NCBI GenBank assembly: GCA_030248195.1
Contig: JASAND010013454.1
Span: forward strand, 20,241-84,240
Length of the DNA: 64,000 nucleotides
Direction: 5' to 3'
Source: Trissonchulus latispiculum
Lineage: Eukaryota > Nematoda > Enoplea > Enoplida > Ironidae
The translations under genes were made by a program, and so were the position numbers. The notes under the pieces are model-generated. The model did not search any database. It saw only the letters and a program-made list of their open reading frames with translations, and was not told where the DNA came from. Of the stretch, positions 885-55,937 are shown piece by piece (positions within the stretch are counted from its first letter, which is position 1; each line of letters starts with the position of its first letter).

Positions 885-3416
885 TTACAGGAAATGTAAC
901 AGAAAGTTGTCGAACTGCACGGCCAACATTTTCTTGGTGCATAGCTCAGGCTGACAATTAACGTAAAATTGAGAAAAACTATATACAACCATAAACAGAA
1001 CAAAAGAAAGCCAAATCCAGGTAAACAAAAGATCAGAACAAATTACAATCTGAAGAACAGGAGGAGGTTCAGGTGGTGGCCTGGGTCGCTGTCGACAAGT
1101 ATCTGCAAAAGAAAGGCTCACTTCAAGCATTATCATTGCACCACAAAGCAAAGCAGGCTGCAGTTTTAGCAAACTGCTAGAATACCGACATTGTGGTCCA
1201 ACCGTGACTTCTTCTACATGACCGAGTTTTAGTACTTCCTTAACCACATGTTGTTGCAGCAAATTACAGACATCGTAGTAGCTCACGGCACCAGGAACAT
1301 CCTCCGAACAACTGCAGATGGCGGAAGTTTCATCGTTTTCCCGGTTGGTGCTTGAATTAGAGACCTTAGGGTCTGACTGCACAAACACAAATGAGTCAAC
1401 CGTAGGGCGTTCTTCCAGATTAAATCTTGCTTCCCAGCTATCATCTGTTCTGTCCAATTTGAAGCTGTCTACGAAGCACAATTTCTCCTCGAATGCAACC
1501 TCCACTTGATGCAGAGTGAATGTAGTACCATAATAATTACCAGTTATCCAACAACCGCTTACTAAGCAGCGAGCATCTTCTTTGTGGAATTCGATTCCCA
1601 AACATTGTTCCTGTTGATTACAGCCTACAAACTGTTCCGCTTCGGTCTCCATGCTGGAGTTTACAGATTCTTCGCGTTTTGATAATTGCAATTTATCAGC
1701 ATCAGGTAAAACATTGCAGCCATCCGCAAGCAAAGCCTCACAAACGTTCACTGGACTTTCTTCCGCTTTGTCAACGGAAGATGTTTCAGAACAACCAATT
1801 CCCTCAGGGGAACCTTGCGCTGAACGTGTATTAAATTTCTCCTTGCTGGGATCCAAACAGTTGTCCATCGCTAAATGTTCGCATTCTGCTACTGCGGTCC
1901 CAGGGTTATTCCAAGTTCTGAAAGCACAGGGCAGATCAGATCTAGTTGCTGCATAGGCCAATGCTTCACCTTTTTCAGGAAGATTGCTAAGGCAAGTTCT
2001 TCCACCAGATTGGCATACGGAGTCAAGATTAGAGGAAATTAAATTATTATTAGAATAATCAGAATTGCTTACCTTTCTGTCACGAACATTTTGAGATGAT
2101 TGCAAGCAGAATCTTAAAGGATTCCAGACAGCAGATTTAGTTTCATACCTGGCTACATCGCTGTCTGCCAAGAAGCCATTGGTTCCCACCATACAACTTG
2201 TGGAACTCATCTTGGTGCCAAATTGTCTTTCAGATGCTCTGGAGTTATCACTCCCAGTATTAGGCGTATCGACACGGTCATGCATTGTTTTGTTATCCAT
2301 GGTCCACTTTCTAATCCTATCAATTTCTTGTCCGGAGACAAGGTTAGTATGACCTCTGGGCCTTTGATTCCATCTTGACCTTCTCGGACCTCTTTCACTA
2401 GCATACTTTAGACTTTCCACTTGACGGGTCAAGTTTTCAACTAGCTGCAGAATCTCCGCTGCTTCACTAGGGTCACAGACCTTACGCTCAGGCATGTTAA
2501 AAGGTTGTACCATTAACTTACTGTCTTCAGGCAACCATTGTGTCGCCGTTTTAGTCTGGAATCGTGACGATGTTTCTGACTGTGCACAGCTTGCCAACTT
2601 GGTCACATCCGATCCCGAGTTAAATCCGGGAAAGTCCACATTTCTGTAGGGGCTGACTGTACTCTGTCCATTTTGTGAGGAAGCGAGCGGATAGCTTTCG
2701 AGCGGAGAAAGATTAAGTTTTCCAGTTACCAGTAGATTTGCCTCATGGCGCTTCGCTATTTTCACAGCTTCTTCAAACGTTTCCGGATCCGAAATAAGAA
2801 CCAACTGTTGAATGCAGTTTAACAATTTATTGACAAAGAAATCCTTCATTAATATCTTCTGCGCCTCCAATTCAATGGTAGGATAGGCATTTCTAACCAA
2901 TTTCTGAATTGCTAAGGCAAAGTCAGAAACGGTCTCTCCAACGAGTTGCGTCCTTCCGCGCAATTGCGCTCCACTGAGCTTAACCAATTCTTCTGTCTTC
3001 AAAAGTGGCAGTAACTTACCTTTAAGGTCTGCATACGTGCGTTTGTCCTCAGAGCTCAGGCTCTGGTACGCCTCCAAGGCGCCTTTTCGCAAGTAAGCGG
3101 GCAGAGTCTTGGCCATCTTGTCTTCGTTCCAGGAGTTGGCTTGGGCCAAAAGTTCAAACATTACCATAAATTCTGAGAAGTCCTCGCCCAACCGGCCAGC
3201 GAACGGTTCCAAAACAATCGGAACATCCCACTCTGAAGCCCTTTCTAGGCAGTCGAGTCTTTCCATGGTCGAGTGTTCCAAAAATTCCAATCGTTTCTGC
3301 AGCTGCCTCAGGGCAGTCTGCTGTTGCGATAGCATTTCATCCACTGACCATTGATAGTTCGCAGGTTTGTCTCGTTCCTTTTCTGTTTCAACAGCTTCCA
3401 CAAAACTGTCGGCCAT
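885..3416 (-). CDS. Ty3/Gypsy-type Gag polyprotein with C-terminal membrane segment
   Basis: This is an uninterrupted 843-codon ORF. Residues about 20-60 look like a short coiled coil (heptad-like L/Q/E residues). Residues about 66-226 have the retrotransposon Gag (capsid) pattern: an EPFAG start, an F..F..L helix, LPAYLRKGALEAYQSL, then a GETVSDFALAIQKL helix and a D.FV.KL.. helix, as in the Retrotrans_gag family. The middle (about 230-620) is polar and low in recognisable motifs. I see no CCHC zinc knuckle. Near the end a proline-rich stretch (PRPPPEPPP) is followed by a strongly hydrophobic segment at about 795-815 and a short tail, which is unusual for Gag. No protease or reverse transcriptase is in this ORF. 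The start ATG at 3416-3414 lies about 480 nt inside the LTR. The intact frame argues for a young element or a retained gene. A domesticated Gag (Arc/PNMA-like case) is possible but the adjacent LTR favours a retroelement. Confidence 0.8.
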   Translation of the reverse strand: MADSFVEAVETEKERDKPANYQWSVDEMLSQQQTALRQLQKRLEFLEHSTMERLDCLERASEWDVPIVLEPFAGRLGEDFSEFMVMFELLAQANSWNEDKMAKTLPAYLRKGALEAYQSLSSEDKRTYADLKGKLLPLLKTEELVKLSGAQLRGRTQLVGETVSDFALAIQKLVRNAYPTIELEAQKILMKDFFVNKLLNCIQQLVLISDPETFEEAVKIAKRHEANLLVTGKLNLSPLESYPLASSQNGQSTVSPYRNVDFPGFNSGSDVTKLASCAQSETSSRFQTKTATQWLPEDSKLMVQPFNMPERKVCDPSEAAEILQLVENLTRQVESLKYASERGPRRSRWNQRPRGHTNLVSGQEIDRIRKWTMDNKTMHDRVDTPNTGSDNSRASERQFGTKMSSTSCMVGTNGFLADSDVARYETKSAVWNPLRFCLQSSQNVRDRKVSNSDYSNNNLISSNLDSVCQSGGRTCLSNLPEKGEALAYAATRSDLPCAFRTWNNPGTAVAECEHLAMDNCLDPSKEKFNTRSAQGSPEGIGCSETSSVDKAEESPVNVCEALLADGCNVLPDADKLQLSKREESVNSSMETEAEQFVGCNQQEQCLGIEFHKEDARCLVSGCWITGNYYGTTFTLHQVEVAFEEKLCFVDSFKLDRTDDSWEARFNLEERPTVDSFVFVQSDPKVSNSSTNRENDETSAICSCSEDVPGAVSYYDVCNLLQQHVVKEVLKLGHVEEVTVGPQCRYSSSLLKLQPALLCGAMIMLEVSLSFADTCRQRPRPPPEPPPVLQIVICSDLLFTWIWLSFVLFMVVYSFSQFYVNCQPELCTKKMLAVQFDNFLLHFL

Positions 3417-3614
3417 GACCTGAAAGCTTTACGTCTCCTATAAATATTAAATGGAATCAAATGCAAAATTAGTCAACTAACAACAACAACAAAACAACCA
3501 AATTAGCTATTACGTGATATAAGAAGAATTGGGCTGCTTAGACTTCGCCCTTGCCAGAATATTTAGAGCAAAATACATAGGAAAAAATACTAGACAAGAA
3601 AAACAAAGAACCTG

Positions 3615-3783
3615 CTGCCAAAATTCCGTGGCAGAAAAATAGAGAAACTAGCCAAACAGGCTGAATAACGAGACCTAAAATCCGAAGGTCGAGATGAGAG
3701 TGTCTGCCAAATCCGTGGCAGAAAGTCCTTGGCCGAATCCGCGGCGAATCAAAACACAAAAACAACTGCCAAATCCGTGGCAG
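3615..3783 (-). repeat. Three identical small hairpins in retroelement leader
   Basis: The motif CTGCCAAATCCGTGGCAG occurs at 3704-3721 and 3766-3783, and with two extra bases at 3615-3634. Each can fold with a CTGCCA/TGGCAG stem. A weaker relative lies near 3729-3746. They sit between the primer-binding site and the Gag start, where packaging or translation elements of retroelements usually lie; that role is inferred. Confidence 0.7.
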
Positions 3784-3872
3784 AAAACGGAAAAAATACA
3801 AAAACAAAAGTGGAAAAATAAATGATGGCCTATGCTGCGAGCGCAGGCAGGGCAGGAGTAGAACCTTCCCCT

Positions 3873-3890
3873 ACCCTACTCGCAGCGCCA
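3873..3890 (-). promoter_or_regulatory. Retroelement primer-binding site, tRNA-Ser-like
   Basis: Read on the minus strand, the sequence two bases after the LTR end begins TGGCGCTGCGAGTAGGG. TGGCG plus a complement to a tRNA 3' end is the standard primer-binding form. The implied tRNA end (CCTACTCGCAGCGCCA) is close to animal tRNA-Ser(CGA) ends as I recall them, and some insect Gypsy elements use tRNA-Ser. Confidence 0.7.
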
Positions 3891-3892
3891 AT

Positions 3893-4435
3893 TGTGATAC
3901 CTAGGCTAAATTAGACTTATATAAAATGCAAGCCCAAAAAATTAAGTATCGTTTAATTATTATTTAATTAAATAAGATTACTTAACATATGTTAAGGCAC
4001 ACCCGAGGTGATGCCGTCTGCAGTAATTACAGATAAATGGCCTCAGGGCCGACGCCATGTAACACTATACAACCGCTGCTGACTAAGTCAGAATAAGAAA
4101 GAGCAGAGACCGACCAACTACGCTAAAATCCAACTCAAGACTGATGTGTACGGCTTAAAGTCGAACTAGCATTTCGCAGTAAGATGAAGTCTTTAAATAC
4201 CAAGAATTACTCAGGTAATTCTTGAAGATTGTTAGTGAACCTTTCTCTAGCAAACTAAACGCCAACAATCATAATAATTCCAAGAATTATGATGCAGAAG
4301 AACAACTTCGGTTAAAAGGGAACAAACTCAAACCTAGTCAAAATATAAAGAGAAAAGCAAAAAGTCAAAAAGAGAAGTTTGCAGCAAACATTGAGGAAAG
4401 CAAAACCAATAATATGAGAATGAGGGGGCATCACA
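3893..4435 (-). mobile_element. 5' LTR of the Gag-bearing retrotransposon
   Basis: The 543-bp segment is bounded by short inverted ends: on the minus strand TGTGATGCC at the outer end and GGTATCACA at the inner end, matching 8 of 9 bases as inverted repeats and giving TG...CA. The inner end is two bases from the primer-binding site. A TATA-like TATTTAAAG (minus strand, about 4188-4197) could drive transcription toward Gag. The partner LTR is outside the window, so the outer boundary rests on the inverted ends alone. Confidence 0.6.
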
Positions 4436-7170
4436 GCAGGAAGAGCCGTCTGGCTCGGTTAGCGACGGCGATGGCTTTTCATAACGGGGAACTAATGCAA
4501 ACGGATAATAGAAAACTGGTCCTATTTCGCTGAGTGGACGTACTGTCCGGGTGAACTCAGGATCCAGATGCCGTATCCAAGTTACGTAAATATCGCCTTC
4601 TTATCATTACTTCTGCTTCGAACGTTTTCTTGGAAAGGGCCGGGCAAAGGTTCTGATCCTTGCCCTGATCAGACGGATCCAGGCCGTTCAGGCAGACCGA
4701 AGATGGCAGTCCTGACACAGTGGGAAACCCGTAATGCAACCCCACTCAGCGGGTTAATCCCTGACCTGCGAAGAAAACCCATCAATATCTTGTCCATAGT
4801 CCTGATAAGAGAGCATAAACACCTGTCCACTCCCTATGACCGGCAAGGGATCTTCACTCAATGCGGAATTGTGAAGAAAAAGGAGAGGGTAGGGAAAACG
4901 GAGGCCATGGGTTAACCACCACTGGGCGGGACCAAAACCACAGGAGGTGAGAGACAAAGTCGCACGCTCCTCTTTCAGGTTGCATCAGTCCTGGCTGGGG
5001 TTCATACCCGGGTCTCCTTTACCGCTTTGCCCTCCAGAACGGTTGTCCTTACCAGCCCCAATTTCCAAAAATCACCACAGCGACCAAGATTCGACACGCC
5101 CCTACTGCCCGTTGGTAGACGAAGAATTCGGATTCCCCGTCAAGGAACATACCCTGGAGGACCAGGGGGCCAACCACGAAATTTTGGAACGTAGGACCGC
5201 AGGGAAGGTTATTATCCCATCCACATATTTAGCGGCCGACTGGGGCAACTCAACCAAAGTTGACCCCAAAAAGTTCCGCAGGAAGGGGATACGGTCGTAA
5301 TCTGTTCACGCCGCATCGGGACTACCGACGGTACCTCGTGAATGCTGGCGAATAATCATAGTTCGTCATGATCTAAGCCGTCACCTGCGATCGTAAATAA
5401 TCGGCGATGCTGCAACTGCTCCCGTGTGCACTAGGGGAGCAGCAGCGCCCGATCTTCAGAGCGCCAGCTTCAGTTGATCTTACATGAGATGTTGTGGATC
5501 TCAAACGTGATGAGGGCTCGCCTCGGCATTCGAAGGAGACTGGCCAAGTCCACTTCGAAAAAACCATCACAGCTACGGCTTCGCTATGATCGTAAATTAC
5601 CAACCACGACCATCAACGTAACAGGAATCGTAGAGAAAATAAAAGAGTTGAAATAATTAACCTCCGACGTACGTTAATGCGTTCATGAGCGTACTGCTCG
5701 GAGGACAACGTAAAATCGATCCATAAAATTACGTAAATGATGGTGAGGCTGCTTGAGCCGGTGAGCTGCAAAAAAGACGGCCTCTCCCGACGTTATCGGA
5801 GAAACCTGGCTTTAGCCACCGAGTGGCCAAAACGATCACAGGACATGGCTATATACGCGCCGCAGTCAGCGAGGAAAAAGTGATGATATACGTATGGGGG
5901 AAGGGTAAAAACCGATCTGAATGCCGATTTGTGGACGCTCAGGCATTCAGAGGCAGGACATATGATGCTCCGCAGGACATGGACCAGGGTCGTCGATGGC
6001 GTCGGAGGTTTGATTCCACTTTAGATTCGATTATAGTCGCTCGATAGACGAATGATAACGATTTTGGCCGGACAGGCCGGAAAACGTGAATATACGTAAG
6101 ATCGAAATGAGCGAAATTCACAGCTTCCGACCCGTACTGGGTGGTTTCTTTTCAGGACTCGTCAAGACTTCTGGACCATAACCGAAATCTACTGATTCCA
6201 ACGAAGAATCAGCCTCGCGACGAAAATTGATGGAATGTTGGGTGACGACATCATTCGTTTGAACCGATTTGGTCGAACTGACCGGTTTAAATGGCAGAAA
6301 AGTCGGCCCTGACGTGGCTCTGACTTCTACCTGGGCATTGGAAGGCCGTCCATGAGAGGCTTCGCCTTCGGAATTAGCCGTAGGTAGGTACGTAGATTCG
6401 TAGAATGGCGCAGAAAATCCCAGGACGAACGTACTGTTCTTATTTTCAGGCGTCTTCGAAATCTTCAGCTCATCGTGGCGATTTGGGATAATAATGGGTA
6501 CTGCCGACCCAAATTTCTGAATTTCGTATCGTAGATGGAAGATAAAGCGCGTTTGGAACCGGTACTGGCGTACTGCCGTTCGCTCGAGTTGAAGATTCGC
6601 TAGATTCGAATCTATCTCAGGAAGTGGTGTACTGCCTTTCCGAATTCCAGTTGTCGCTTCGAAAATACCACAGGAAATCTCAGAAATTGATGCGTTATCG
6701 TTGGGGAGCGGCGTACTGCCTTTTCTCCCAAGCGCCGATCAGAACAGGAAGAAAAAAAAATACGCAAAAGAACCAGGTTGCGTCCTGGCAGACTAATGTA
6801 GCGGAAGTGTTGTAATTCCTGTAGCGATTGACAACCACTTGCTACTGGAACTGAGCCCAATGGCTAACGCGCCTGGCCTAACAGAAGCCAGTTCGTGGGG
6901 AGCCTCGCCAGTAACTGATGTTACACGTACACGTACCAGGCTAATAATAAATGAGCCCAAAAAGAACTACGAATAAATATAGAGCTTTAATATAAAGGCG
7001 CATTGGCCGGAAATGACTCATAGATAGACATAGAAATAGCAGGCATAAAGTACACATATATAGGAATATAATAAAGGCCGTACTGGCCGGGCATATAAGG
7101 CACAAATATAACTATACGCAGAGCACGTGGGAGCCACAAACGGGTGGGGGAAACCGGTTGTGATGACAAG
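4436..7170. other. Unassigned region with recurrent GTACTG motif
   Basis: No convincing gene. Composition differs from the rest of the window (higher GC, many CG dinucleotides, GA-rich and TACG-type words). The hexamer GTACTG, often followed by CC or GCC, recurs on the plus strand at 4540, 5691, 6134, 6431, 6498, 6562, 6570, 6629, 6713 and 7080. Short ORFs here show no known family. It may be an old or chimeric repeat that the LTR element inserted into. Confidence 0.4.
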
Positions 7171-11462: not shown

Positions 11463-11748
11463 TTGTAAGGGAAGTAGGCATAGGAAATATTGATAAGCCT
11501 GCAATGGGAGTTCAGCTGATGGTCCCGTGGTGTAGTGGTTTAGCATGTCTGACTCTAGAGCAGAAGGGCCGTGGTTCGATCCCCGGCGGGACCAATTCTT
11601 TACTTTCAATGGTGAGTGAAAAGCTGAACCTCCCTCTTCCCTTCTCTCTTCTAGGTCCTGGTTTCGTGGGTACGAGGGTGCCTGACGCCTCCCGTTCGGG
11701 CTTGTCCTTGGTTTCTTCCTGATCCGCCAGCCCTGGTAGAAGCGTTAC
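11463..11748 (+). mobile_element. tRNA-derived SINE, copy 1
   Basis: A repeat in three parts: a head (GGCATAGGAAA.ATTGATAAGCCTG), a tRNA-like core with RNA polymerase III boxes, and a tail beginning AATTCTTTACTTTCAATGG and ending CCCTGGTAGAAGCG. The same three parts recur at 17220-17495 and 17734-18018 on the opposite strand, and the head plus half core at 37423-37650. The tail contains TGACGCCTCCCGTTCGGGC. The tRNA core lies inside the unit, not at its 5' end. Confidence 0.8.
11521..11593 (+). tRNA. tRNA-like core of SINE, anticodon CTA (probable pseudo-tRNA)
   Basis: 73 nt with a perfect seven-base acceptor stem (GGTCCCG / CGGGACC) followed by A. The A box TGGTGTAGTGG and B box GGTTCGATCCC are intact. 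The anticodon arm TCTGA-CTCTAGA-GCAGA gives anticodon CTA, which would read UAG. The T stem is imperfect and the D loop has one extra T. The overall pattern is nearest to Gln/Glu-type tRNAs. Because it sits inside a SINE and sibling copies have other anticodon loops, it is most likely not an aminoacylated tRNA. Confidence 0.5.
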
Positions 11749-12684
11749 ACTTTAACTTAATTGCTAGTAACCATAGGTCGACTAGTCCATTTCACCTCTG
11801 TGTAGGAAAGAGTTTTAAATAGACAGCTGTGCAGTAAAGGTACGTTTAAGCTTAACCCTTTGACAGGTATGTAATTATTAATGTCCTGCTGTGAGAAAGA
11901 AGACTTGCGAGGGAAAGTTATTTCTGACCGGGACTGTAGTTGGCAAGCTGTGGGCCTTGTGCAAAAGGTTTCACTTTTTCAGCTTGGGTGAGTTGGGTGA
12001 GCAAAAAGCGCAACTTCTTGCGATCTGATCATTTAGTTGGCAAGCTGCGGTCCTTGTGCATAATTCACAGGATTAAGCAGCACATTTTCATGAGAGGGAG
12101 GAACTAAACCAGGGCTCCCCCAGATACCAAGTAAACGATTGGTATTTTGATTTGTTAAGAGTGGCCTACCCTAGAGAAGTTTGTAGAGGTCTAGTTTACA
12201 AACCAAGACCATTCCTTAGTTTGGGCAAAGAGTGGCACATCCTACCTAGAGCAATAGTGATTGCTTGCGCCAGCATTGGACGCGTCGCAGACATTGGACT
12301 CGTTTTGGGCTGCTTGATCTGCTAATTCAAATATAGTAAAATCTTTCGCTTTAGAGAAACAGGATTTTTGAGTTTTATTATTTGAAGTGGAGAAACAAAC
12401 TAATTTATTCGTAGATATGAAATCTCTTGGTTCTTCTCGGTTCTATTTTGGGAATCAAAATATTCAAGAAAATCGGAATTAACGAAATCGATACCAAAAT
12501 TGTTGCCATGATTTAACTCGACATGGTCAAAAAATAACCACACCAATCTTTAGCTCGGTCAGTCAAGCTTGGGTGCTTTAGAGGATGTCAAGGAGGGAGG
12601 AAACTTAGAAGACCTCCTAAACCCGTTTCAAGATATCTTTCCAAAGCTAACGTCCCGCTTTCCCCTACCTTTGGAGGTATGTGA
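11749..12684. other. Intergenic with half-MITE relic
   Basis: No gene. At about 12440-12560 a degenerate half copy of the 21668-22253 MITE family is visible (AACGAAATCGATA, then CTCGACATGGTC and TTTAGCTCGGTCAG). Confidence 0.4.
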
Positions 12685-15900: not shown

Positions 15901-17219
15901 TATTAGTTTACGATTAACATCTAAAATTTGTTTTCAGTACAGAAACATTCTATAAGAGATTCCACTGGTTAATTATGTTCGTAGATGTATTTTTCGTAGT
16001 TTCGAAGTCTCATTTTTTAATTACTATCTCTATTGCAGCAACGAATAAATCCGTTTGAGATATAATTAATTTTCATGAGTATACTATGTACGACACTCGC
16101 TAACGGCAGCTCACTATCATGGTCACGCTAGCATATACTACCACATCGAGTTCTATTTTCAACGGCAGCTTTGTAATATTGGTTTCTCAAATTTTTTATC
16201 GAAAATTATTCAATTTCTACGTTTTAGCTTAATAAACCAAAAGTGTTATTTCTAAATTTCTCTCACTCAGTGTAAGCCTCGGAATCATTTGTTAGAAACA
16301 TTTGTCTCTCTTCTGTTCCACAAGATGTGAAGAACTGGTTGTTGAAGGTTTCCACAGAAGTCGACCTTTTGTTCTAAAACACAGTTCTACGCCTTTTACA
16401 GTACAGCCGTCGTAGTGCAGAAAACGGTACAATGTCAACATCTTCTGATTGTATTAAAGCCAAGCGTGACTATTATTACATGTGGTGTCACGACTTTATT
16501 CAGAAATAAGCTTTATTCGCCAAAACAAGAGTTTTGTTGAGACTACCTTTCCTGGCAGAAAATGGTAGGAAAACGCTAAAAAATGAGCTGTTACTGAAAA
16601 GTGTTACCTGACTAGGCTTTTTAGTATTATCCAACTTTTACCTATTTCAGAAGCAGGGCGTCATCTTTCTACCATATTCTTGCTTAACATTAAATGTTTT
16701 GAAGGTTATTATTGTTACTTCAAGCTTAATGCAGAATTTCTGAAACCTGACTTGTTTTAAGATTTTTCTTCCATACTGGTTGGACTTATAGGATGCGACA
16801 TGAGAAATACAGTAGGTAGATAGTTAAAGATTTTTAGCCAATCAAAATTACTAGATAATGATTTTTGATCAGAGGCTAGAGTTAGTTTTTGTAACAAATT
16901 ATGTTTGTGATTAGATTGATAAATCAGATGTAACGTTTTCGGGCACGCTGAACTATAATCGAATGACTCAACAGGAAAAGATCAACCGTAGGTTGACTTC
17001 GCGCAAGGGGAGCTTCCAAATAAAATGTTTCGAACAGGAGAATGGAGGTTTGTAATGTACACTGCACATACTTAAAAAATTAGAAATTTCTAAGGTGCTC
17101 ATTCCTCAGGTCCAACTAATACGAAACTAGGATAACTCTAATGGGATTTACGTAATCGTGTTCCAAGCATGTCATGTACCTAATCGAGACAGGCAATTGG
17201 GCATATATACAACGGTGTA
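12988..17219. other. Intergenic, no gene seen
   Basis: About 4.2 kb without an ORF or splice pattern I can support. A short fragment at 13033-13085 resembles the GGCCCG-rich element family of 51651-52458. Otherwise low-complexity AT-rich sequence, with a small GTTGTTGTTG/CTGCTGCTG patch near 15460-15505. Confidence 0.4.
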
Positions 17220-17495
17220 GCGCTTCTACCAGGGCTGGTGGACCAAGAAGAGACCGAGGACAAGCCCGAACGGGAGGCGCCAGACACCTTCGTACCCGCG
17301 AAACCAAGACCTAGAAAAGAGAAAGGAAGAGGGAGGTTCAGCCTTTCACTCACCATTGAAAGTAAAGAATTGGTTCCGCCGGGAATCGAACCATGGCCCT
17401 TCTACTCCGGAGCAGACATGCCAACCACTTCACCACGGGACCATCAGCAGGCTTATCAGTCTTTCCTATGCCCGCTTCGCTTACATCTGCCCCGG
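17220..17495 (-). mobile_element. tRNA-derived SINE, copy 2
   Basis: Inverted relative to copy 1, with tail at the low-coordinate side and head ending near 17495. The tRNA-like core is 17372-17442 (minus), with acceptor ends GGTCCCG and CGGAACC (one mismatch), intact B box GGTTCGATTCC and an anticodon arm one base shorter than copy 1. Confidence 0.75.
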
Positions 17496-20105: not shown

Positions 20106-21185
20106 TATTGACACACATTATTCCGATATTTAAATGTTAGTTAAACTAATTAAAGTATTAAAAATTTATGAAATATTTAGGAATATCGTTGAGAGGAAAG
20201 GTAGCAAACATAAAAACATACATTCGGTTTCGCAAACTTTGACAACTGGTGATCCTTAATAGCAGGATTATTGCAAATGAGCACCGGGGGGTCTGGGGGC
20301 GGAGCCCCCCAGAAGTTGGAGATTTTTCGAAATTACGGATTAAATCCGTTGTGGAAATGTTTAAAAAGATTATTTGGCAACTGTTACATCTATTTTAACT
20401 AAAGCTCCTAACGCTAATGCATTTTTTGTGTTAATTGCATCTGTGAATTCTTGAATTTTGAATAAAGTCAGTATAAAGTCAATAGAGAAGCGTGTATGCT
20501 CCGTGCAGCGTTATTCAACTACAAAACAGTGAAGCATTTGTAATTACTATTAACGTTAGTTAAATTGATAGTGAATTGCTCGCACATAGGTCTTTTGTAT
20601 TTGAAAATTTCAGAAAAATGGTAATCTTGCATTATTTTAAGTTGCCATTTGTGTATTTTTTGCGAAAAACATTTTTTTAGAAGAACCAAAAAATTTGGAT
20701 ATTCTGCTTCCGCTACAGTTACAAATTTTGTTAATTTCGGGGTTTTACTTTAGTACATACTAATCTTGATCCTGCCTGACCTGTTGAATGAGAACAATAT
20801 AAATGTATATAAATGCACCTAGTAATCTCTATGTATTTATTGACGTGAAATTCATGAGTTCGAAAATATCTGATATATATATGGATGCAGGTGGACAACA
20901 ACTTACAAATAACATTGAGTAACATTGAGACATGACTTTGCACCTTGGCATTCCATGACAAAGTGGGAAACATCGGGGGTCTGGGGGCGGAGCCCCCAGG
21001 ACCCGAAGAAATTTTAGGAAAAAACGGAAAAATTGGTACTGGAAACATTTAAAGTTTTTACTCTTACAAAAGTGAATTTTCTCCCGAAATAATGTTGCGT
21101 CTAGCTTGCGTCCCGCTAAAATTTCATTGCGTCCAGATAAGAAACTTTGCGTCCAGACGCACATCTGGACGCAAAAAAAATCCTG
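19655..21185. mobile_element. Non-autonomous hAT-like element, 1.53 kb
   Basis: Ends CAGGGTTTTTTTTGG and CGCAAAAAAAATCCTG are imperfect inverted repeats of hAT type (CAGGG...). A perfect 8-bp TSD, CGTCCACC, lies at 19647-19654 and 21186-21193; eight bases is the hAT length. Inside, the words TTGCGTCCCGCTAAA and TTTGCGTCCAGA occur in direct orientation near both ends. A GC-rich hairpin motif (GGTCTGGGGGCGGAGCCCCC) occurs three times in the same orientation, starting near 19928, 20287 and 20978. No transposase remains. Confidence 0.8.
20050..20100. repeat. (TA)n microsatellite
   Basis: About 50 bp of alternating T and A inside the hAT-like element. Confidence 0.95.
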
Positions 21186-30984: not shown

Positions 30985-33657
30985 TTAAGGTGGTGGTAAC
31001 GTTTACCGCAGTCATCTTCAAAAAGTCATAACTTGCTCAACTTATGGACTTATATAGCAAATGATCAAATCTTATCTTATATAGCAAATCATTTTAAAGC
31101 TTGAAATGAGGATATTTTGGTGATGTCGTCAAACTTTAGATTAACACTTTCTACAGTGAAATGAAAAAACCATAAACCAATTTTAAACAAGGATTTCAGA
31201 AACCTGTGAAAGTTGATCAAACTTCGCTCTACTATATCACTCTATCAAGTGCTGACGAGGGTCATTTTTCAGTTTCAGTCATCCCCAGAAGACCTACAAC
31301 TCGAGAAATTTATCAAAAAGTCAAAATTTTTGAAATTTCATAATTTTTCGACACTTTAAATGAGAATTACACAGCGTTGTGAAAGTTTCTCAAAAACTAA
31401 GAAAAATGACCCTCGGCAATAGCGCGCAAAATGTTTCTGTGAAATGGTTTGCCGTTTTATTGAGCCAGTTCGGCGAAATCCGTGTTTAAAACAAACTAAC
31501 TGCAGTTTTTAAAAAATCGGTTTTTTAGTTTTAGCTTTAGTCACAACTTTAGCTAGACTGATGTAATCATTTTTTGCACAAAATGTGCCCTTGGACGGTT
31601 TTTGATTCGGGTAATCAGCTGTCGGATGTTGTATAGTTACATGCTGCAGCAATTGAAAAAATCTGAAAATTTAGAAATCAGCTGGTTTTTGACCCCAAAA
31701 GCTTTAAATCTGGTTTATTTCCCGAAATGTAGAAGATAGAAAACGTGGTCCAAAAGCAAAGTTAACAGTTTGATAAGCTCTTTCGATTGATAATGGGATG
31801 GGTTTGGCTAACTTCAAGCATCTCTAAGAAGCTTATTCTGCAAAAATTAACAAGTAGGCCCCAAAAGGGGCAGTATTCCTTAGTAGACCTGTTATATTCA
31901 GTTACCGTTGAATAATTTCTTCGTAGAAACTAGAAACTGAGGTCTTTGACTGCTTTTTCTTGCCACAACGGAGGGAGTCTCGCAGGTGTCCATAAGCGCT
32001 GTAACCCCACCTCCCCCACCCACAATTTTAGCCACGCGGTTTATCTTCTCAAATCATCTCAAATTGTGCGAACGTCCTGCTACAGGCTACAGCAACGTAA
32101 AGTTCGCCCATCTGACACTATTGTAAAATGACAAAAACATTTATATTGAGCTTTCGTCACAAATGAAACCTAATTTGCATATTCAGAATCCAAAAAGTGG
32201 TACATAGCTAGCCACACGTTAAAGATAGGGATTTTCTTGACCCAGTGCAGAAATACACGCAAAAGATGCTAGTATATACCGATATTAGTCATTCCGGCTC
32301 TAGCCGGAATAAAAATTCTTAGATTTTAACACAAAGGCTGGGTGTGCATAAAACACGGCCCCGGCCCCGGCCCGGTACATAAAACACGGCCCCGGCCCCG
32401 GCCCGGGTGCATAAAACACGGCCCCGGCCCCGGCCCCGGCCCCACATAAAACACGGCCCCATTACGGCCCCGTGCATAAAACACGGCCCCGTTACGGCCC
32501 CATACATAAAACACGGCCCCGTCACGGCCCCATCAAAAAATCATATTTTTGACTAATGGGACTAAATATAACCAATTCAGCATCTCCTAATCTATCAAAT
32601 TAAATTGTTTAAATGTTTAGTCTTTGAGTTTGAAAAATCGAATTTTGAATTGAAAATGTTATCTTTGAACCACCTTTTTAAGTTTTTGTATCATGATAAA
32701 CCTACAAATAACAAACTTTATGTTATGCAGTTATTAAATGTGTAAATTAAATTAAATTGTGTAAATGTGTTTATGTGTAAATTTATTTTTAATTTTATCT
32801 TGCGCTCCGAAAAACTAAAGAGAATTTACAAATTTTCATCACCTTTAAAATTAACTTGTTAACGAAACTACATATGACCAAATGTATATACATCTAGAAT
32901 AGGGCTCGCTTAGAGATTTCGAGTGATTTAAAAATCAACTGATAATGTTTATCTTTGCAATCAGTAACTAAGTTTTTAAAGTAAGCCGTGCCGTATTGAC
33001 ACCTTGTGGTCATAATGTTCAAGAGATCGTAAAAAAACAACAATTTATAAAAGATTACATAAAATAGCATAAACGCATTTACGCATTTACTTTACACAAT
33101 TTAATTTAATTTACACATTTAATAACTGCATAACATAAAGTTTGTTATTTGTAGGTTTATCATGATACAAAAACTTAAAAAGGTGGTTCAAAGATAACAT
33201 TTTCAATTCAAAATTCGATTTTTCAAACTCAAAGACTAAACATTTAAACAATTTAATTTGATAGATTAAGAGATGCTGAATTGGCTATATTTAGTCCCAT
33301 TAGTCAAAAACATGATTTTTTGATGGGGCCGTGACGGTGCCGTGTTTTATGTGTGGGGCCGTGACGGGGCCGTGTTTTATGCACGGGGCCGTATTGGGCC
33401 GTGTTTTATGTGGGGCCGGGGCCGGGGCCGTGTTTTATGCACCCGGGCCGAGGCCGGGGCCGGAGCCGTGTTTTATGTACCGGGCCGGGGCCGGGGCCGG
33501 GGCCGGGGCCGTGTTTTATGCACACCCCAAAGGCTCCGGGATTGTTTCTAATGTTTTCAGGAACGCCGGCGTAGTGTGTTCTGAAAGTTTCAAACATTTT
33601 GGATAACATTCGCGAAAGTTGTTTCCCAAAATACGGGAAACGTTGCCACGACCTTAA
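30985..33657. mobile_element. TTAA-flanked DNA element (Kolobok/piggyBac-type), host of nested foldback
   Basis: TTAA at 30985-30988 and 33654-33657 flank inverted ends GGTGGTGGTAACGTTTACCG and CGGGAAACGTTGCCACGACC (a few mismatches over about 20 bp). TTAA duplications are used by piggyBac and Kolobok elements. No transposase is visible. A younger foldback element is inserted at 32340-33527. Confidence 0.55.
32340..33527. mobile_element. Foldback element with GGCCCC/GGGGCC repeat arms
   Basis: Perfect 8-bp TSD CAAAGGCT at 32332-32339 and 33528-33535. Terminal inverted repeats start GGGTGTGCATAAAACACGG. Each arm is about 425 bp: an outer 180-200 bp array of CATAAAACACGGCCCC units with GGCCCC hexamers, then about 230 bp of AT-rich sequence that is a near-perfect inverted copy of the other side (for instance CAAATAACAAACTTTATG at both). 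The loop is about 33085-32765 region. No coding capacity; the ORFs reading MFYVWGRDGAV and alike are translations of the repeat. Confidence 0.9.
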
Positions 33658-39830: not shown

Positions 39831-40949
39831 TTCGTTTCGGCAATTAAATGAATTTAAACATAACAAAGGTTAGATAAGCCTGACTTATAAGTCGTATAAC
39901 TTATGTCGTAAACCTCAATTTACTGTCTGATAGGATTAAACTGGTCATCCAAACTTTGGGCAGTATTAAGATTCAATCTGGCAAAACTTCAAAATTTATT
40001 AAATTTCACTTTGTGCCTAAGTTGATAGCTTCCATAGAAAATTGTTACACTTTTATATACATTTTCATTTTGGCATCTTCGCAGTCTTGTATTCCAATAC
40101 CGTGCAATAATATGCTGCTTCTTATAGTTCCTAATCCTGGGATCTTTTAAGTACACACACAGGCAATTTAATAATTTACCGGTTTGGTATACATACATAC
40201 GCAAGCATCAACTGCAGAGCTTACATTGTCGGCATGTTACTTGTATATGAATTTTAAATGGATTAAAGTATGTATGGAAATTAATTTCAATGGAAGGGCA
40301 GCCATTGAAGGTAACTGTTAATATTTGTTAATAATCACATAGGGTAGAATCATAGGGGTGGAGGAGGGGGGGATGCTTGAGCAGGCTATCCCATGAACTA
40401 AAATGGCGTATCCCCAGTTTGTCCATTCCGCAGTTTGTCAACTCCCCAGTTTGTCAGCTCTAATCGCGATAATTAGTGCCGTCCCCAGTTTGTCAACTCT
40501 TTTTCCTTCCATCCCCAGTTTGTCAACTCTTTTTCTGTTCATCCCCAGTTTGTCAACTGTTTTCCACACTATCCCCAGTTTGTCAACTCTTTTTCAGTGT
40601 ATCCCCAGTTTGTCAACTGTTTTTCATTCCATCCCCAGTTTGTCAACTCTTTTTCTGTTCTTCCCCAGTTTGTCAACTGTTTTCCACACTATCCCCAGTG
40701 TGTCAACTCTTTTTCAGTGTATCCCCAGTTTGTCAACTGTTTTTCATTCCATCCCCAGTTTGTCAACTGTTTTCCACACTATCCCCAGTTTGTCAACTTT
40801 AAATTTGTTTGTTCTTTAAAATATGTAGTTGCATAAATCTAAAACTGCAATGTATACTGTGTGGTAGCACATATCATAAAACAAGCAAATTACAGTACAA
40901 GTAAAATTATATATACATTAAAATTAAATTTTCGTACAATGTTCAAGTT

Positions 40950-41278
40950 CTAAATAGCATCGGGGCTCTGAAAGGCAATCGCTTTCAAATACTGAACAGG
41001 AGTTTTCATTTCAATTTCGGTCATAATTCTCATCAACTGTCGGTTCACGCGCTGGTAATCGGCATTTTTTGGCGGTAACTGATGGCCCGTTTGGTGACGA
41101 GAAATGTCGTCTGAAATTTTGTTGTGCTCCTTCATCATTTGTCTGAGGAACCTAAATACATTCGGATGAGGAGTAGCAATGAACCTATTCAGACGAGAAT
41201 GCCAACCCTCCACGTGATTATTCGTTCGGATTTCCACGAGATACCATAACCAACTCCTTTCGAAGGAAGCCGAATTTC
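40950..41278 (-). pseudogene. MULE transposase C-terminal exon (fragment)
   Basis: An acceptor-like GATTTTTAG (AG at 41280-41279) is followed by an open frame to a stop at 40950. The product contains the RTNNHVEGWHSRLNRF and HPNVFRFLRQMMKE patterns typical of the C-terminal part of Mutator-like (MULE) transposases in animals. The catalytic core is missing; a nested element sits about 36 bp upstream of the acceptor. Confidence 0.75.
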
Positions 41279-41315
41279 CTAAAAATCAAGAAGTTCGTCA
41301 GCCATACCCCTCAAG

Positions 41316-42027
41316 CAAGAGTGCATAATTGCACTATATATAAGAGGAAGAGTAAGCCACTGGAGCGCTCCTCTTCTTGGCATTGTGTAACGGTGCTCCG
41401 ACCACAATACGCGAATGCTCCCCCGTTTGGTGGGGGGGTAGCTCTCTTCGACAAAGCATACCCCCCTCCGTTTGGTGGGGGTAGCAGAAAAGAGGTCCCC
41501 GTTTGGGGGGGCAGCCAACAGCCAATCAGATTGCAGAGACCCCCTCCCTGTTTGGTGGTGGGGTGTAGCAGAGGATTACGGTAGTTTTTGTTCTATTTGA
41601 AAAAGGGTCCCCGTTTGGTGGGGGTATGCAAAAGGGGTCCCTGCGTGTGGGGGGGGGTAGGCAAAAGAGGTCCCCGTTTGGGGGGGAGGTCGCCAGCAGC
41701 CAATCAGATCAGCCAATTTCAGCCTGACTTGGCGACCCACCCCAAACTGGGACCCCCTTCTGCCTACCCCCCCACCAAACGGGGACCCCTTTTGCATACC
41801 CCCCCACCAAATGGGGACCCCTTTTGCATACCCCCCCACCAAATGGGGACCCCTTTTGCATACCCCCCCCCCCCCGCCAAACGGGGAGGGGGTATGCTTG
41901 TCGACCCCCCCACCAAACGGGGGAACATTCGCGTATTGTGGTCGGAGCACCGTTACGCAATGCAGTGAAGAGAAGCCCTCTAGTGGCTTACTCTTCTTCT
42001 AATATATAGTGCAATTATGCACTCTTG
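41316..42027. mobile_element. Nested foldback element with CCCCGTTTGGTGGGG arms
   Basis: Perfect 7-bp TSD CCTCAAG at 41309-41315 and 42028-42034. Terminal inverted repeats CAAGAGTGCATAATTGCACT, extended through AAGAGTAAGCCACT and a stretch CGGTGCTCCGACCACAATACGCG, then G/C-rich units with CCCCGTTTGGTGGGG and GCAAAAGGGGTCCC. Seven-base duplications occur in P-superfamily (Galileo-type) foldback elements. The overlapping ORFs are repeat translations. Confidence 0.85.
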
Positions 42028-42422
42028 CCTCAAGTATACTGAATATTTCATGTCGTATGACCCGAATAGGCTTAATTTAAATATGCAAATTAGATTTGCC
42101 GTATCTTGTTTAGTTTCCGTATATTCCATAGTTTAAGCGTTTAACTTGCTGCCATATTGTCCTAGATAGATCAAACTTAAACTCAAGTTGACAAACTGGG
42201 GATAGTGTGAAAAACAGTTGACAAACTGGGGATGGAATGAAAAACAGTTGCCAAACTGGGGATGAACCGAAAAAGAGTTGACAAACTGGGGATGGAAGGA
42301 AAAAGAGTTGACAAACTGGGGATGGCACTAATTATAGGGAATAGAGTTGACAAACTGGGGAATTGACAAACTGGCGAGTTGACAAACTGGGGACAAACCA
42401 CTAAAACTTTTGAGTGGCTTGT

Positions 42423-51328: not shown

Positions 51329-52493
51329 TAAAGATGAACACAGGGCTTTCTTCGGCTTTTCGGAAAATTTTGCTTGGCCCGTCCCTCTGGCAAAATGTTT
51401 CTGCCCGGTCCTGCCCGCAAGCTGGCAAAACTTGGCCCTACCCGGCTCGCCAAAAGAAAATTTCCACAAATTTACGAACATTGTCATTTCAAAGGCTTCA
51501 ATGCTACTTGGAAGCGCTAAGTTATACTACGAACTGTTAAATGTTGCTGTAAAATAACCAAAGTGAGTAAATGCTTGGCTTTCTGTACTTCACAACATTG
51601 TCTCAGAGTCGATCGGGCCAATCTCAACCCGCCCGCTAAGCAATGGAGATTAGAGATGAGATCAGGGCCGACTTTTTCGGCCCGGCCCGGCCCTGTTCAA
51701 ATTTGAGGTCTGTCCGGCCCGGCCCGGCCCTGTGTCAAAAACGTCAGGCCCTGGCCCGGCCCGGCCCTGAGCGCCGTTTAGGTCTGCGCGGCCCGGCCCG
51801 GCCCTGAGAAGCCCTGATTTTAAAAAATTCTTCTATGAAGTTTTGAGACTCTTAGAATTTTGTGTTCTGCCGCACTATTGTATTCTCGAGATCCAAAATT
51901 CATGTTCTCTCAAAAAACAGTGCATTACAAATATATTTCATCATCCTACCTAGCTAAGGAAATTAGCACTAAATGTACTAAATTAGCCTGAGGTCGATTT
52001 ACCGAAATAGTTAAATGTTTTACATGTTTGGATGTTTGTTTGTTTGTTGTTTGAAATAGAGTTTGAAACTAGAAACTTTGAAAATAGAGATTAAACTTTT
52101 GTTACTTGAATGCTGACGCAAATTTGATATTGATATTGATATTGATTTGTTGTATATTCAGTCTCATTTGACACAAAGAATGCAAGAAATTTTGAATTTA
52201 GGAAGGCAAAATCAATTCTTAGAATTGGAAAGTGTATATATGCAATAAATTAATGTGAAAAACGTCAGGGCTTGGCAGGGCCGGGCCGGGCCGGGCTTTT
52301 TTCGTTGGAAGCTGCGCGGCCCCGCCCCGCCCCTACAGACTTTTCTTAAGGCCCGGCCCGGCCCGGCCCTGACTGGAAACCAGGTCTGCGCGGCCCGGCC
52401 CGGCCCGTCGGGCCGGGCCGGGCCGAGCCGGGCTTTGTCGGCCCTGATCTCATCTCTATTGGAGATCGACCCGGGCCGAAATGCTCATCTCTA
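51329..52493. mobile_element. Older GGCCCG-rich MITE split by a younger one
   Basis: Starts TAAAGATGAACACAGGGC and ends GGCCGAAATGCTCATCTCTA, matching the 59861-60245 family end to end, but interrupted by 51651-52458. Begins 42 bp after the exon 6 donor. Confidence 0.6.
51651..52458. mobile_element. Nested GGCCCG-rich MITE
   Basis: Ends TAGAGATGAGATCAGGGCC and GGCCCTGATCTCATCTCTA are inverse repeats. Flanks ATGGAGAT (51643-51650) and TTGGAGAT (52459-52466) match at 7 of 8. Arms carry GGCCCGGCCCGGCCCT tandem words. Confidence 0.8.
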
Positions 52494-54048: not shown

Positions 54049-55937
54049 CTATTTCTTTAAAGATTAAACGGATTAGATTAAAATTAATCCGCATTAAAGA
54101 AATAGCACCTCGGATTAAACGGATTAAAATTTAATCCAGCGAGTTAAACGAGTTAAACGGATTAAATTTAATCCTATTTCTTTATTGCACCTAGGATTAA
54201 AATTTTAATCTAATCCTGTTTCTTTATTCACAGTTCGGATTAAAAAACAACGAGTTAATTTTAATCCGACCTGCTTAATCGCTGTTTCTTTAAAGATTAA
54301 TTTTAATCCGTTTAATCCGTCGCCTGCATTTTCAACTAAAGTCTGACCAAAAAATGTAGAAAGCGAAATTGTTTGCTTTATATCTCGTAAACGCTTCAAG
54401 ATAACTGCCATAAATTATATATTTTCTGAACCGGAATGATGAGATCTTTCTTCTCGTGAAAAAAGTTTTTTGAAATTTCCCGTGCGATTTCAAAGGGTGC
54501 CGCTTTTATATGTCCAGAAGGATTGGTAAATGCTACACCCACGATTTTTTCAGGAAAATTTCCCCTTGCCCGAATGTCCTACACACCAAATTTCAGCTTT
54601 GTTGGTTGAAAATTGCGTGAGTCATTCCATTTTTTAGATTTTCAAAATCCTTTGATCTTTGCCGCTTTTTCGACTTTGACTGGTTGTTACTCGCCACTCG
54701 CTCAACGAAAAAAATTTTTTGATTGGATTTTCAGGACCGCCTGGGTGTCCGCTTTCATCTGATATTCGTGGTATTTCAAAATTTGAAAGTCGATTTTTTC
54801 GAAAAATACCACTTTTTGACCCAAAATTTCGGCAAAGCGAATCCAGCAAAAGTGAATAAAAATATCATAATCATAAAGTTCATTATGAGCTGAATCCAAC
54901 GATATAAAGTTTTCGTGGCTACGACTTATATTGCGCCAGCAATGAATTTTTAAACATTTTCCTTATTTCAGCTGGTTTTTGCTAGTTTACGCTGGTTCAG
55001 GTAAATCTAGGCGGCAATATCAAAGGAAGCCAAAAACCAGCTTGAAATAAGGGAAATGTTTAAAAATTCATTGCTGGCGCAATATAAGTCGTAGCCACGA
55101 AAACTTTATATCGTTGGATTCAGCTCATAATGAACTTTATGATTATGTTATTTTTATTCATTTTTGGTGGATTCGCTTTGCCGGAATTTTGGGTCAAAAA
55201 GTGGTATTTTTCGAAAAAATCGACTTTCAAATTTTGAAATACCACGTATATCAGATGAAAGCGGACACCCAGGCGGTCCTGAAAATCCAATCAAAAAATT
55301 TTTTTCGTTGAGCGAGTGGCGAGTAACAACCAGTCAAAGTCGAAAAAGCGGCAAAGATCAAAGGATTTTGAAAATCTAAAAAATGGAATAACTCACGCAA
55401 TTTTCAACCAACAAAGCTGAAATTTGGTGTGTAGGACATTCGAGCAAGGGGAAAATTTTCCTGAAAAAATCGTGGGTGTAGCATTTACCAATCCTTCTGG
55501 ACATATGAAAGCGGCACCCTTTGAAATCGCACGGGAAATTTCAAAAAAATTTTTTACGAGAAGAAAGATCTCATCATTCCGGTTCAGAAAATATATAATT
55601 TATGGCAGTTATCTTGAAGCGTTTACGAGATATAAAGCAAACAATTTCGCTTTCTACATTTTTTGGTCAGACTTTAGTTTTTAATCCGCGTGCAGGTACG
55701 CGGATTAAACGGATTAAAAGTTGGCGGATTAAAATTTTTAATCGCTGTTTCTTTAATGGCGGATTAAATGGATTAAAATCAACTCGTTTAATCCTCGGAT
55801 TAAAAATGGTCGGATTAAACGAGTTAATTTTAATCCGTTTAATCCGTTTAATCCAGCATTAAAGAAATAACAATTAAAATTTTAATCCGGCTGATTTTTA
55901 ATCCGTTTAATCCGACGGATTAAATAGATTAAACTCT
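54049..55937. mobile_element. 1.9-kb foldback element with GGATTAAA ends
   Basis: Nearly perfect palindrome: left arm about 54318-54990, right arm about 55000-55690, mirrored with a few differences. Outer parts on both sides are arrays of GGATTAAACGGATTAAA words (54060-54310, 55690-55935) with TATTTCTTTAA near the ends. The loop is only some ten bases. Mirror ORFs at 54634-54899 and 55114-55379 are arm translations. Exact ends and TSD are unclear. Confidence 0.75.

Follow-up and report, generated by a model that had tools for sequence, protein, structure and literature searches.

A foldback transposon family with GGGGCC/GGCCCC runs in its tandem-repeat arms in the nematode Trissonchulus latispiculum

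The 64,000-nucleotide stretch of Trissonchulus latispiculum DNA analysed here (the window) carries a 1188-bp element with long inverted arms, flanked by the 8-bp target-site duplication (TSD) CAAAGGCT, that belongs to a dispersed family of foldback transposons, a kind of element that is already known, with arms whose repeat motif is unusual. We consider it very probable that it is a non-autonomous foldback DNA transposon, whose arm units would be bound by a transposase supplied from elsewhere that excises it and inserts it with an 8-bp stagger, and whose GGCCCC spacers would slip. An earlier note on this DNA had placed the element at 32340-33527 with a perfect 8-bp TSD, which the sequence confirms, and its parts are as follows.

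32332-32339, no strand: left TSD, CAAAGGCT, read from the sequence, with the same letters at 33528-33535
32340-33527, no strand: entire foldback element, 1188 bp, with no open reading frame (ORF) of at least 120 aa listed within it
32340-32533, + strand: left outer arm, six CATAAAACACGGCCCC units with GGCCCC-run or GTNAC/ATTAC-type spacers, its first letters being the end motif GGGTGTGCATAAAACACGGCCCC
32534-32765, + strand: left inner arm, AT-rich and without tandem repetition (sequence, arm comparison)
32766-33090, no strand: middle region (loop), 325 bp, compared across 39 copies
33091-33323, - strand: right inner arm (sequence, arm comparison)
33324-33527, - strand: right outer arm, six units, reading GGGGCC on the + strand
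33528-33535, no strand: right TSD, CAAAGGCT (sequence)

Inverted arms make up most of the element: 32429-32765 and 33091-33427 are 94% complementary over 337 nt, and the outermost 34 nt of both ends are 100% complementary. The inner part of each arm is AT-rich and about 230 bp long, and the outer part, about 195-205 bp on each side, consists of six units at 29-43 bp spacing, every one of which starts with CATAAAACACGGCCCC. In the left arm this start is followed by runs of GGCCCC in the outer units and, in the three inner units, by an ATTAC-, GTTAC- or GTCAC-type spacer and a second GGCCCC. The arms are a two-level repeat, in which a unit of about 30 bp is able to hold a hexamer run. As the earlier note had described, the left-hand hexamers read GGCCCC and the right-hand ones GGGGCC, alternating with CATAAAACACGG; the 200-bp outer hexamer arrays that it claimed, however, are not long pure arrays, the longest unbroken GGCCCC run in the window copy being four on each side (TRF counts the rotated hexamer 5.0 times at 33482-33511).

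The genome that holds the window (733.8 Mb in 21,732 contigs) contains the 23-bp element end, at no more than one mismatch, 134 times in forward and 136 times in reverse orientation, and a reversed-pattern control 0 + 0 times, an abundance that chance does not explain; a search with the inner arm returned at least 48 matches (40 of 305 candidates scored). TSDs were read in the window copy and at loci L009-L073, 66 sources in all, some of which are the same places; these resolve into 39 distinct copies with both ends, and 12 sources lack an end pair. An identical 8-bp TSD flanks 33 of the 39 two-ended copies, each with its own and none repeated between copies, which is the outcome of a check proposed in the earlier note, namely a search for other copies with independent 8-bp TSDs. 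Apart from 8 bp, exactly identical flanks were seen in a single copy at 7 bp and in none at 6, 9 and 10 bp, in a tally that has 32 of 39 at 8 bp. Among the six copies without an exact 8-bp TSD, L009 has two mismatches, L038 and L041 have one each, the TSDs of L020 and L039 seem displaced on visual inspection, and L058 is without any TSD; in L074, which lies outside the 39, 9 bp (CTAAATTTG) fit equally well to 8 bp plus an extra G. These differing TSDs and flanks argue against a spread by segmental duplication alone.

The target preference is for an AT-rich core, nAAATTTn. In 32 copies A or T occupies 159 of 192 sites at TSD positions 2-7, whereas the flanks have 887 of 1408 (p = 1.7e-8), and A at position 2 or T at position 7 is present in 43 of 64 cases, with a background of 0.32. 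For three insertions (L010, L017 and L031), element-free copies of the host repeat match the sequence obtained by joining the two flanks at the TSD, the empty sites being L067/L028 for L017 and L071/L026 for L031, and that for L010 lying within the window itself.

20896-21173, - strand: empty counterpart of the L010 insertion site, in a repeat copy (joined-flank match)

Insertion at these related empty sites is precise, and the fixed length of the TSD goes together with dispersed copies. The mobile foldback element proposed in the earlier note is thus supported by the family size, the 8-bp TSDs and the empty sites. At least 200 of the 325 bp of the middle region are present in 29 of the 39 copies and none of it in two; the window copy and L009-L013 are at least 99% identical there, the remaining matching copies 74-93%, and this near identity suggests that the group has likely moved recently. 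That the palindrome is an assembly artefact, as the earlier note had considered and as G-rich stretches open to misreading might suggest (an odd poly-G run occurs in L073), is extremely improbable, since the 39 distinct two-ended copies, the 33 with TSDs of their own and the related empty sites exclude it for the family, the exact hexamer numbers in the window copy apart.

The number of tandem repeats in the arms varies among ends and among copies, as in foldback elements, with 2-18 units per arm in the 39 copies. The two sides do not vary together (correlation between left and right unit number -0.19 in 39 copies, that is, not positive), the extreme being L035 with 18 units on one side and three on the other. 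On this 18-unit arm (L035 747-1450) the GGGGCC strand has long open stretches in all three frames (197, 125 and 255 aa) with GP/GA/GR-rich strings. The commonest spacing between units is 30 (127 cases), and the rest largely form ladders with steps of six (23/29/35/41, 31/37/43/49 and 32/38/44/50). Counted on both strands of the 39 copies, unbroken GGCCCC runs comprise 497 single, 91 double, 43 triple and 38 quadruple hexamers, seven runs reach five, and three single longer ones six, seven and nine hexamers, nine being the maximum. These hexamer runs travel with the element across the family copies, and to this extent the runs are mobile, as had been claimed.

Spacers change faster than the adjoining arm, and mostly in 6-bp steps. 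We compared five spacings in each of 19 close arm pairs (inner-arm difference of at most 1.25%), which share members and are not independent. Of these 95 spacings 46 are unequal, and in 33 cases the difference is a multiple of 6, as compared with 24 of 4448 differing inner-arm sites. The unit core differs from its consensus by 1.3% per base, with 387 of 430 units perfect, as against 3.7% in 66 inner arms, a conservation that is in part selected for by the way the units were located (allowing as many as 5 mismatches in 16) and some copies were found (through a perfect or near-perfect end). Low core divergence is consistent with selection on the core or with its homogenisation, accompanied by free slippage of the spacers. 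Strong gene conversion between the two arms of an element can be rejected: within a copy the arms differ on average by 0.049 (29 copies), as against 0.059-0.072 between copies, and the nearest arm was the own partner for only 4 of 58 arms.

A second foldback family came to light during the examination of transposase matches, as an array of CTGGGTAAAATCCGGCCCC units at L096 708-908. Its end, GGGTCTGGGTAAAATCCGGCCCC, occurs 126 + 112 times in the genome (238) at no more than one mismatch, with 0 + 0 for the control, and all three copies that were read have an identical 8-bp TSD (GGATTTTC, CAAATTTG and TACTTTTC). This family, too, carries GGCCCC runs, and its unit core differs from that of the first family, so that at least two families of one genome share the end design, the GGCCCC runs and an AT-rich target of 8 bp. 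Two copies of about 6 kb each (L098 and L099) contain no ORF longer than 149 aa; arms and repeats are common to both.

Next to these direct observations on insertion, target, family size, the near-identical group, arm variability and core divergence, we propose a mechanism in part by analogy with Galileo, whose transposase THAP domain gave a footprint on the arm, additional sites having been identified within the tandem repeats (PMC3688188). A transposase encoded elsewhere would bind the repeated CATAAAACACGGCCCC units of both arms, which we infer to be its binding sites, join the two ends and cut the element out. Movement would take place in trans, with insertion by a staggered cut of 8 bp at an AT-rich target (nAAATTTn). 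Between the units, the GGCCCC/GGGGCC runs would serve as spacers that slip in 6-bp steps, and whole units may be gained or lost through unequal exchange or slippage, giving arms of 2 to 18 units.

Such an anatomy has several counterparts. By its arms the element may be likened to the sea urchin TU elements, which combine an outer tandem-repeat and an inner domain with an 8-bp TSD, as here, and have 15-bp units, unlike here; the TSD of Galileo is 7 bp. As far as the accessible portions of the published descriptions go, Muta1 and Muta5 of Aedes aegypti share an 8-9-bp TSD, a terminal motif, variable short subterminal tandem repeats and hundreds of non-autonomous copies with the present family, but they have units of 12-15 bp, a known transposase and, for Muta1, no apparent target preference, and that text makes no mention of GGGGCC units (PMC5225508). 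Tm1 of root-knot nematodes likewise is mostly non-coding and has arms of 1-9 tandem units that vary by end and copy, yet its unit is 14 bp long, its TSD 9 bp, its terminal motifs are asymmetric and its transposase is Phantom-like (PMC3169594, from the portion available). The sections at hand on Galileo describe long, internally repetitive arms whose tandem repeats hold binding sites of the transposase domain (PMC3688188, PMC3573991), together with a P-type transposase and a sequence that differ from what is seen here (PMC3688188). Tetris of Drosophila virilis is, in the part of its description consulted, a foldback with internal tandem repeats and 8-10-bp TSDs for which an autonomous copy was not found, but its units of 220 bp also build satellite arrays (PMC4079207).

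None of the copies read yielded a transposase. The longest copies of the first family, L073 (4.57 kb) and L074 (about 2.5 kb), owe their length to nested elements and were rejected as autonomous copies: L073 contains a nested Penelope-like retroelement, and L074 holds a nested element with G-run ends beside TTAA (by eye). The element nested in L073 has a 903-aa ORF at 1850-4561 on the - strand with an N-terminal GIY-YIG domain (Pfam) and reverse-transcriptase-like motifs recognised by eye, which we take to be a Penelope-like element with permuted domain order. Six one-ended copies were compared with the window element (L019, L042, which is the same place as L050, L059, L060 at a contig end, L061 and L072), and inspection of the frame lists of these and of L075, the stretch beyond L059, recognised no transposase. 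Of 20 probed ends for which no partner had been listed, seven showed the expected arm and 13 had no recognisable partner arm; matches of these 13 to one another and to the other DNA analysed are confined to dispersed repeats and short fragments of ends; the longest frames of four of the 20 (L079, L081, L085 and L087) matched no Pfam family.

We tentatively favour, at somewhat less than even confidence, a Mutator-like (MULE) transposase as the mobiliser, which would make the element a Mutator/foldback like mosquito Muta1 and nematode Tm1. The genome contains 86 MULE domain matches, 75 of them without an internal stop, and the TSD of 8 bp falls within the 8-10 bp of MULEs. In the accessible part of PMC5225508, all 14 described mosquito MULE families have 8-9-bp TSDs, 10 of 12 families with long TIRs have subterminal tandem repeats, and Muta1 is assigned to the type 2 foldbacks; together with the 1-9-unit arms and Phantom-like transposase described in the available portion of PMC3169594, this makes MULE-type foldbacks the closest match by anatomy. 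Against this reading, comparison with 146 of the 270 first-family ends placed none of the 86 matches within a distance of 5 kb, and the TSD here is nearly always 8 bp at a preferred target, while that of Muta1 is reported as 8 or 9 bp with no evident preference. Among 100 of the 238 second-family ends compared, a single MULE (contig C1526) lies 1.0 kb from an end. We rejected this MULE, in L096, as an autonomous element and read it as probably nested in the second-family arm, since a second copy (L097, 94.8% identical) is armless and bounded by a short inverted repeat, and since the C1526 MULE starts where the arm alignment breaks off; the contig ends inside it, so that one flank is visible.

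P and hAT transposons can have 8-bp TSDs. A mobiliser from another superfamily, be it P, hAT, KDZ or an undescribed one, is possible, if less probable than a MULE. Neither the AAATTT target core nor the GGGTGTG end of the first family resembles hAT. Searches for P-type (PF21787) and KDZ (PF18758) domains gave no match but carry no weight, as their controls, too, matched in none of 14 genomes. Foldback-like arms do occur in the P superfamily, Galileo being an example in the part of the source available (PMC3688188).

A transposase of the Merlin (IS1595) superfamily appears unlikely. Merlin ends start with GG and have 8- or 9-bp TSDs and TIRs of 24-462 bp in the sections of PMC8101967 at hand, and the 5'-GG end and 8-bp TSD of the present element, for which Merlin ranks second by anatomy, agree with this. 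However, none of the 91 Merlin domain matches in the genome lies within 5 kb of the 146 first-family or the 100 second-family ends compared, and the same sections make no mention of tandem-unit arms.

The DNA-binding exon of the downstream gene, near 49.54-49.72 kb, has NR2C2 as its best PDB match (E 2e-26), and by this similarity the gene is identified as an NR2C (TR2/TR4)-type nuclear receptor. The first exon-like stretch recognised lies near 35.85 kb, after an acceptor-like CAG, and no exon was identified upstream of the element (32.3 kb), so the location inside an intron of this gene given in the earlier note is plausible but unproven. For a BTB gene in the neighbourhood, a protein search over 1013 candidates returned none with E <= 0.001. 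The window also contains a long inverted-repeat element at 40404-42400 with tandem units of about 30 bp (TCCCCAGTTTGTCAACT...) in both arms and no TSD by eye, a large palindrome of different sequence at 54334-55679 with arms 95-97% complementary, and at 51678-51806 a dispersed repeat, also found in L042 around 2060-2230, that has GGCCC pentamer runs and no obvious kinship to the element. tRNA matches at 11521-11594 (+) and 17371-17442 (-), which lie within a repeated block or on its border (11553-11750 versus 17215-17412, 90%), are probably tRNA-derived SINEs.

Like any palindrome of this type, RNA of the window copy is predicted to fold into a near-perfect hairpin (-812.3 kcal/mol, a value for the unshuffled sequence alone), and the computed fold supports the very stable transcript hairpin that the earlier note envisaged. 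Of the 39 copies, 33 have a simple G4 motif on one strand or both (15 of them on both) and six lack it, and G-quadruplex formation here is a suggestion from the sequence motif. The parallel drawn with the human GGGGCC disease repeat is weak and was overstated: the runs are mostly of 1-4 and at most of nine hexamers, broken by non-repeat units, and the runs of the 39 copies contain no disease-like expansion.

We consider it improbable that the GGGGCC runs are selected for forming G-quadruplexes or hairpins, with an effect on transposition or on the host gene, instead of being neutral spacers. Two families with different unit cores both have GGCCCC runs, and the frequency of the G4 motif and the stability of the hairpin would fit such selection, but run length varies freely, the six copies without a G4 motif exist, inner units have GTNAC-/ATTAC-type spacers where a hexamer run would be, and the two families may simply share ancestry. 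With similarly little confidence, we may conjecture a lineage of at least two foldback families that uses GGGGCC microsatellites as a selected, adjustable spacer/G-quadruplex module tuning transposase assembly; if this were true, unstable hexamer repeats of the disease type would have been seeded by transposition at hundreds of sites of an animal genome.

We found no report of GGGGCC in transposon arms in the open-licence literature searched. For foldback biology itself the family is an ordinary addition, which fits a view of foldback arms as binding-site arrays whose spacers are flexible, and it shows transposition spreading DNA with the potential to form quadruplexes. With well over a hundred copies, which can be compared via their adjoining arms, the family is a multi-copy natural record of GGGGCC length change, and its visible 6-bp steps would make hexamer slippage measurable outside the human gene.
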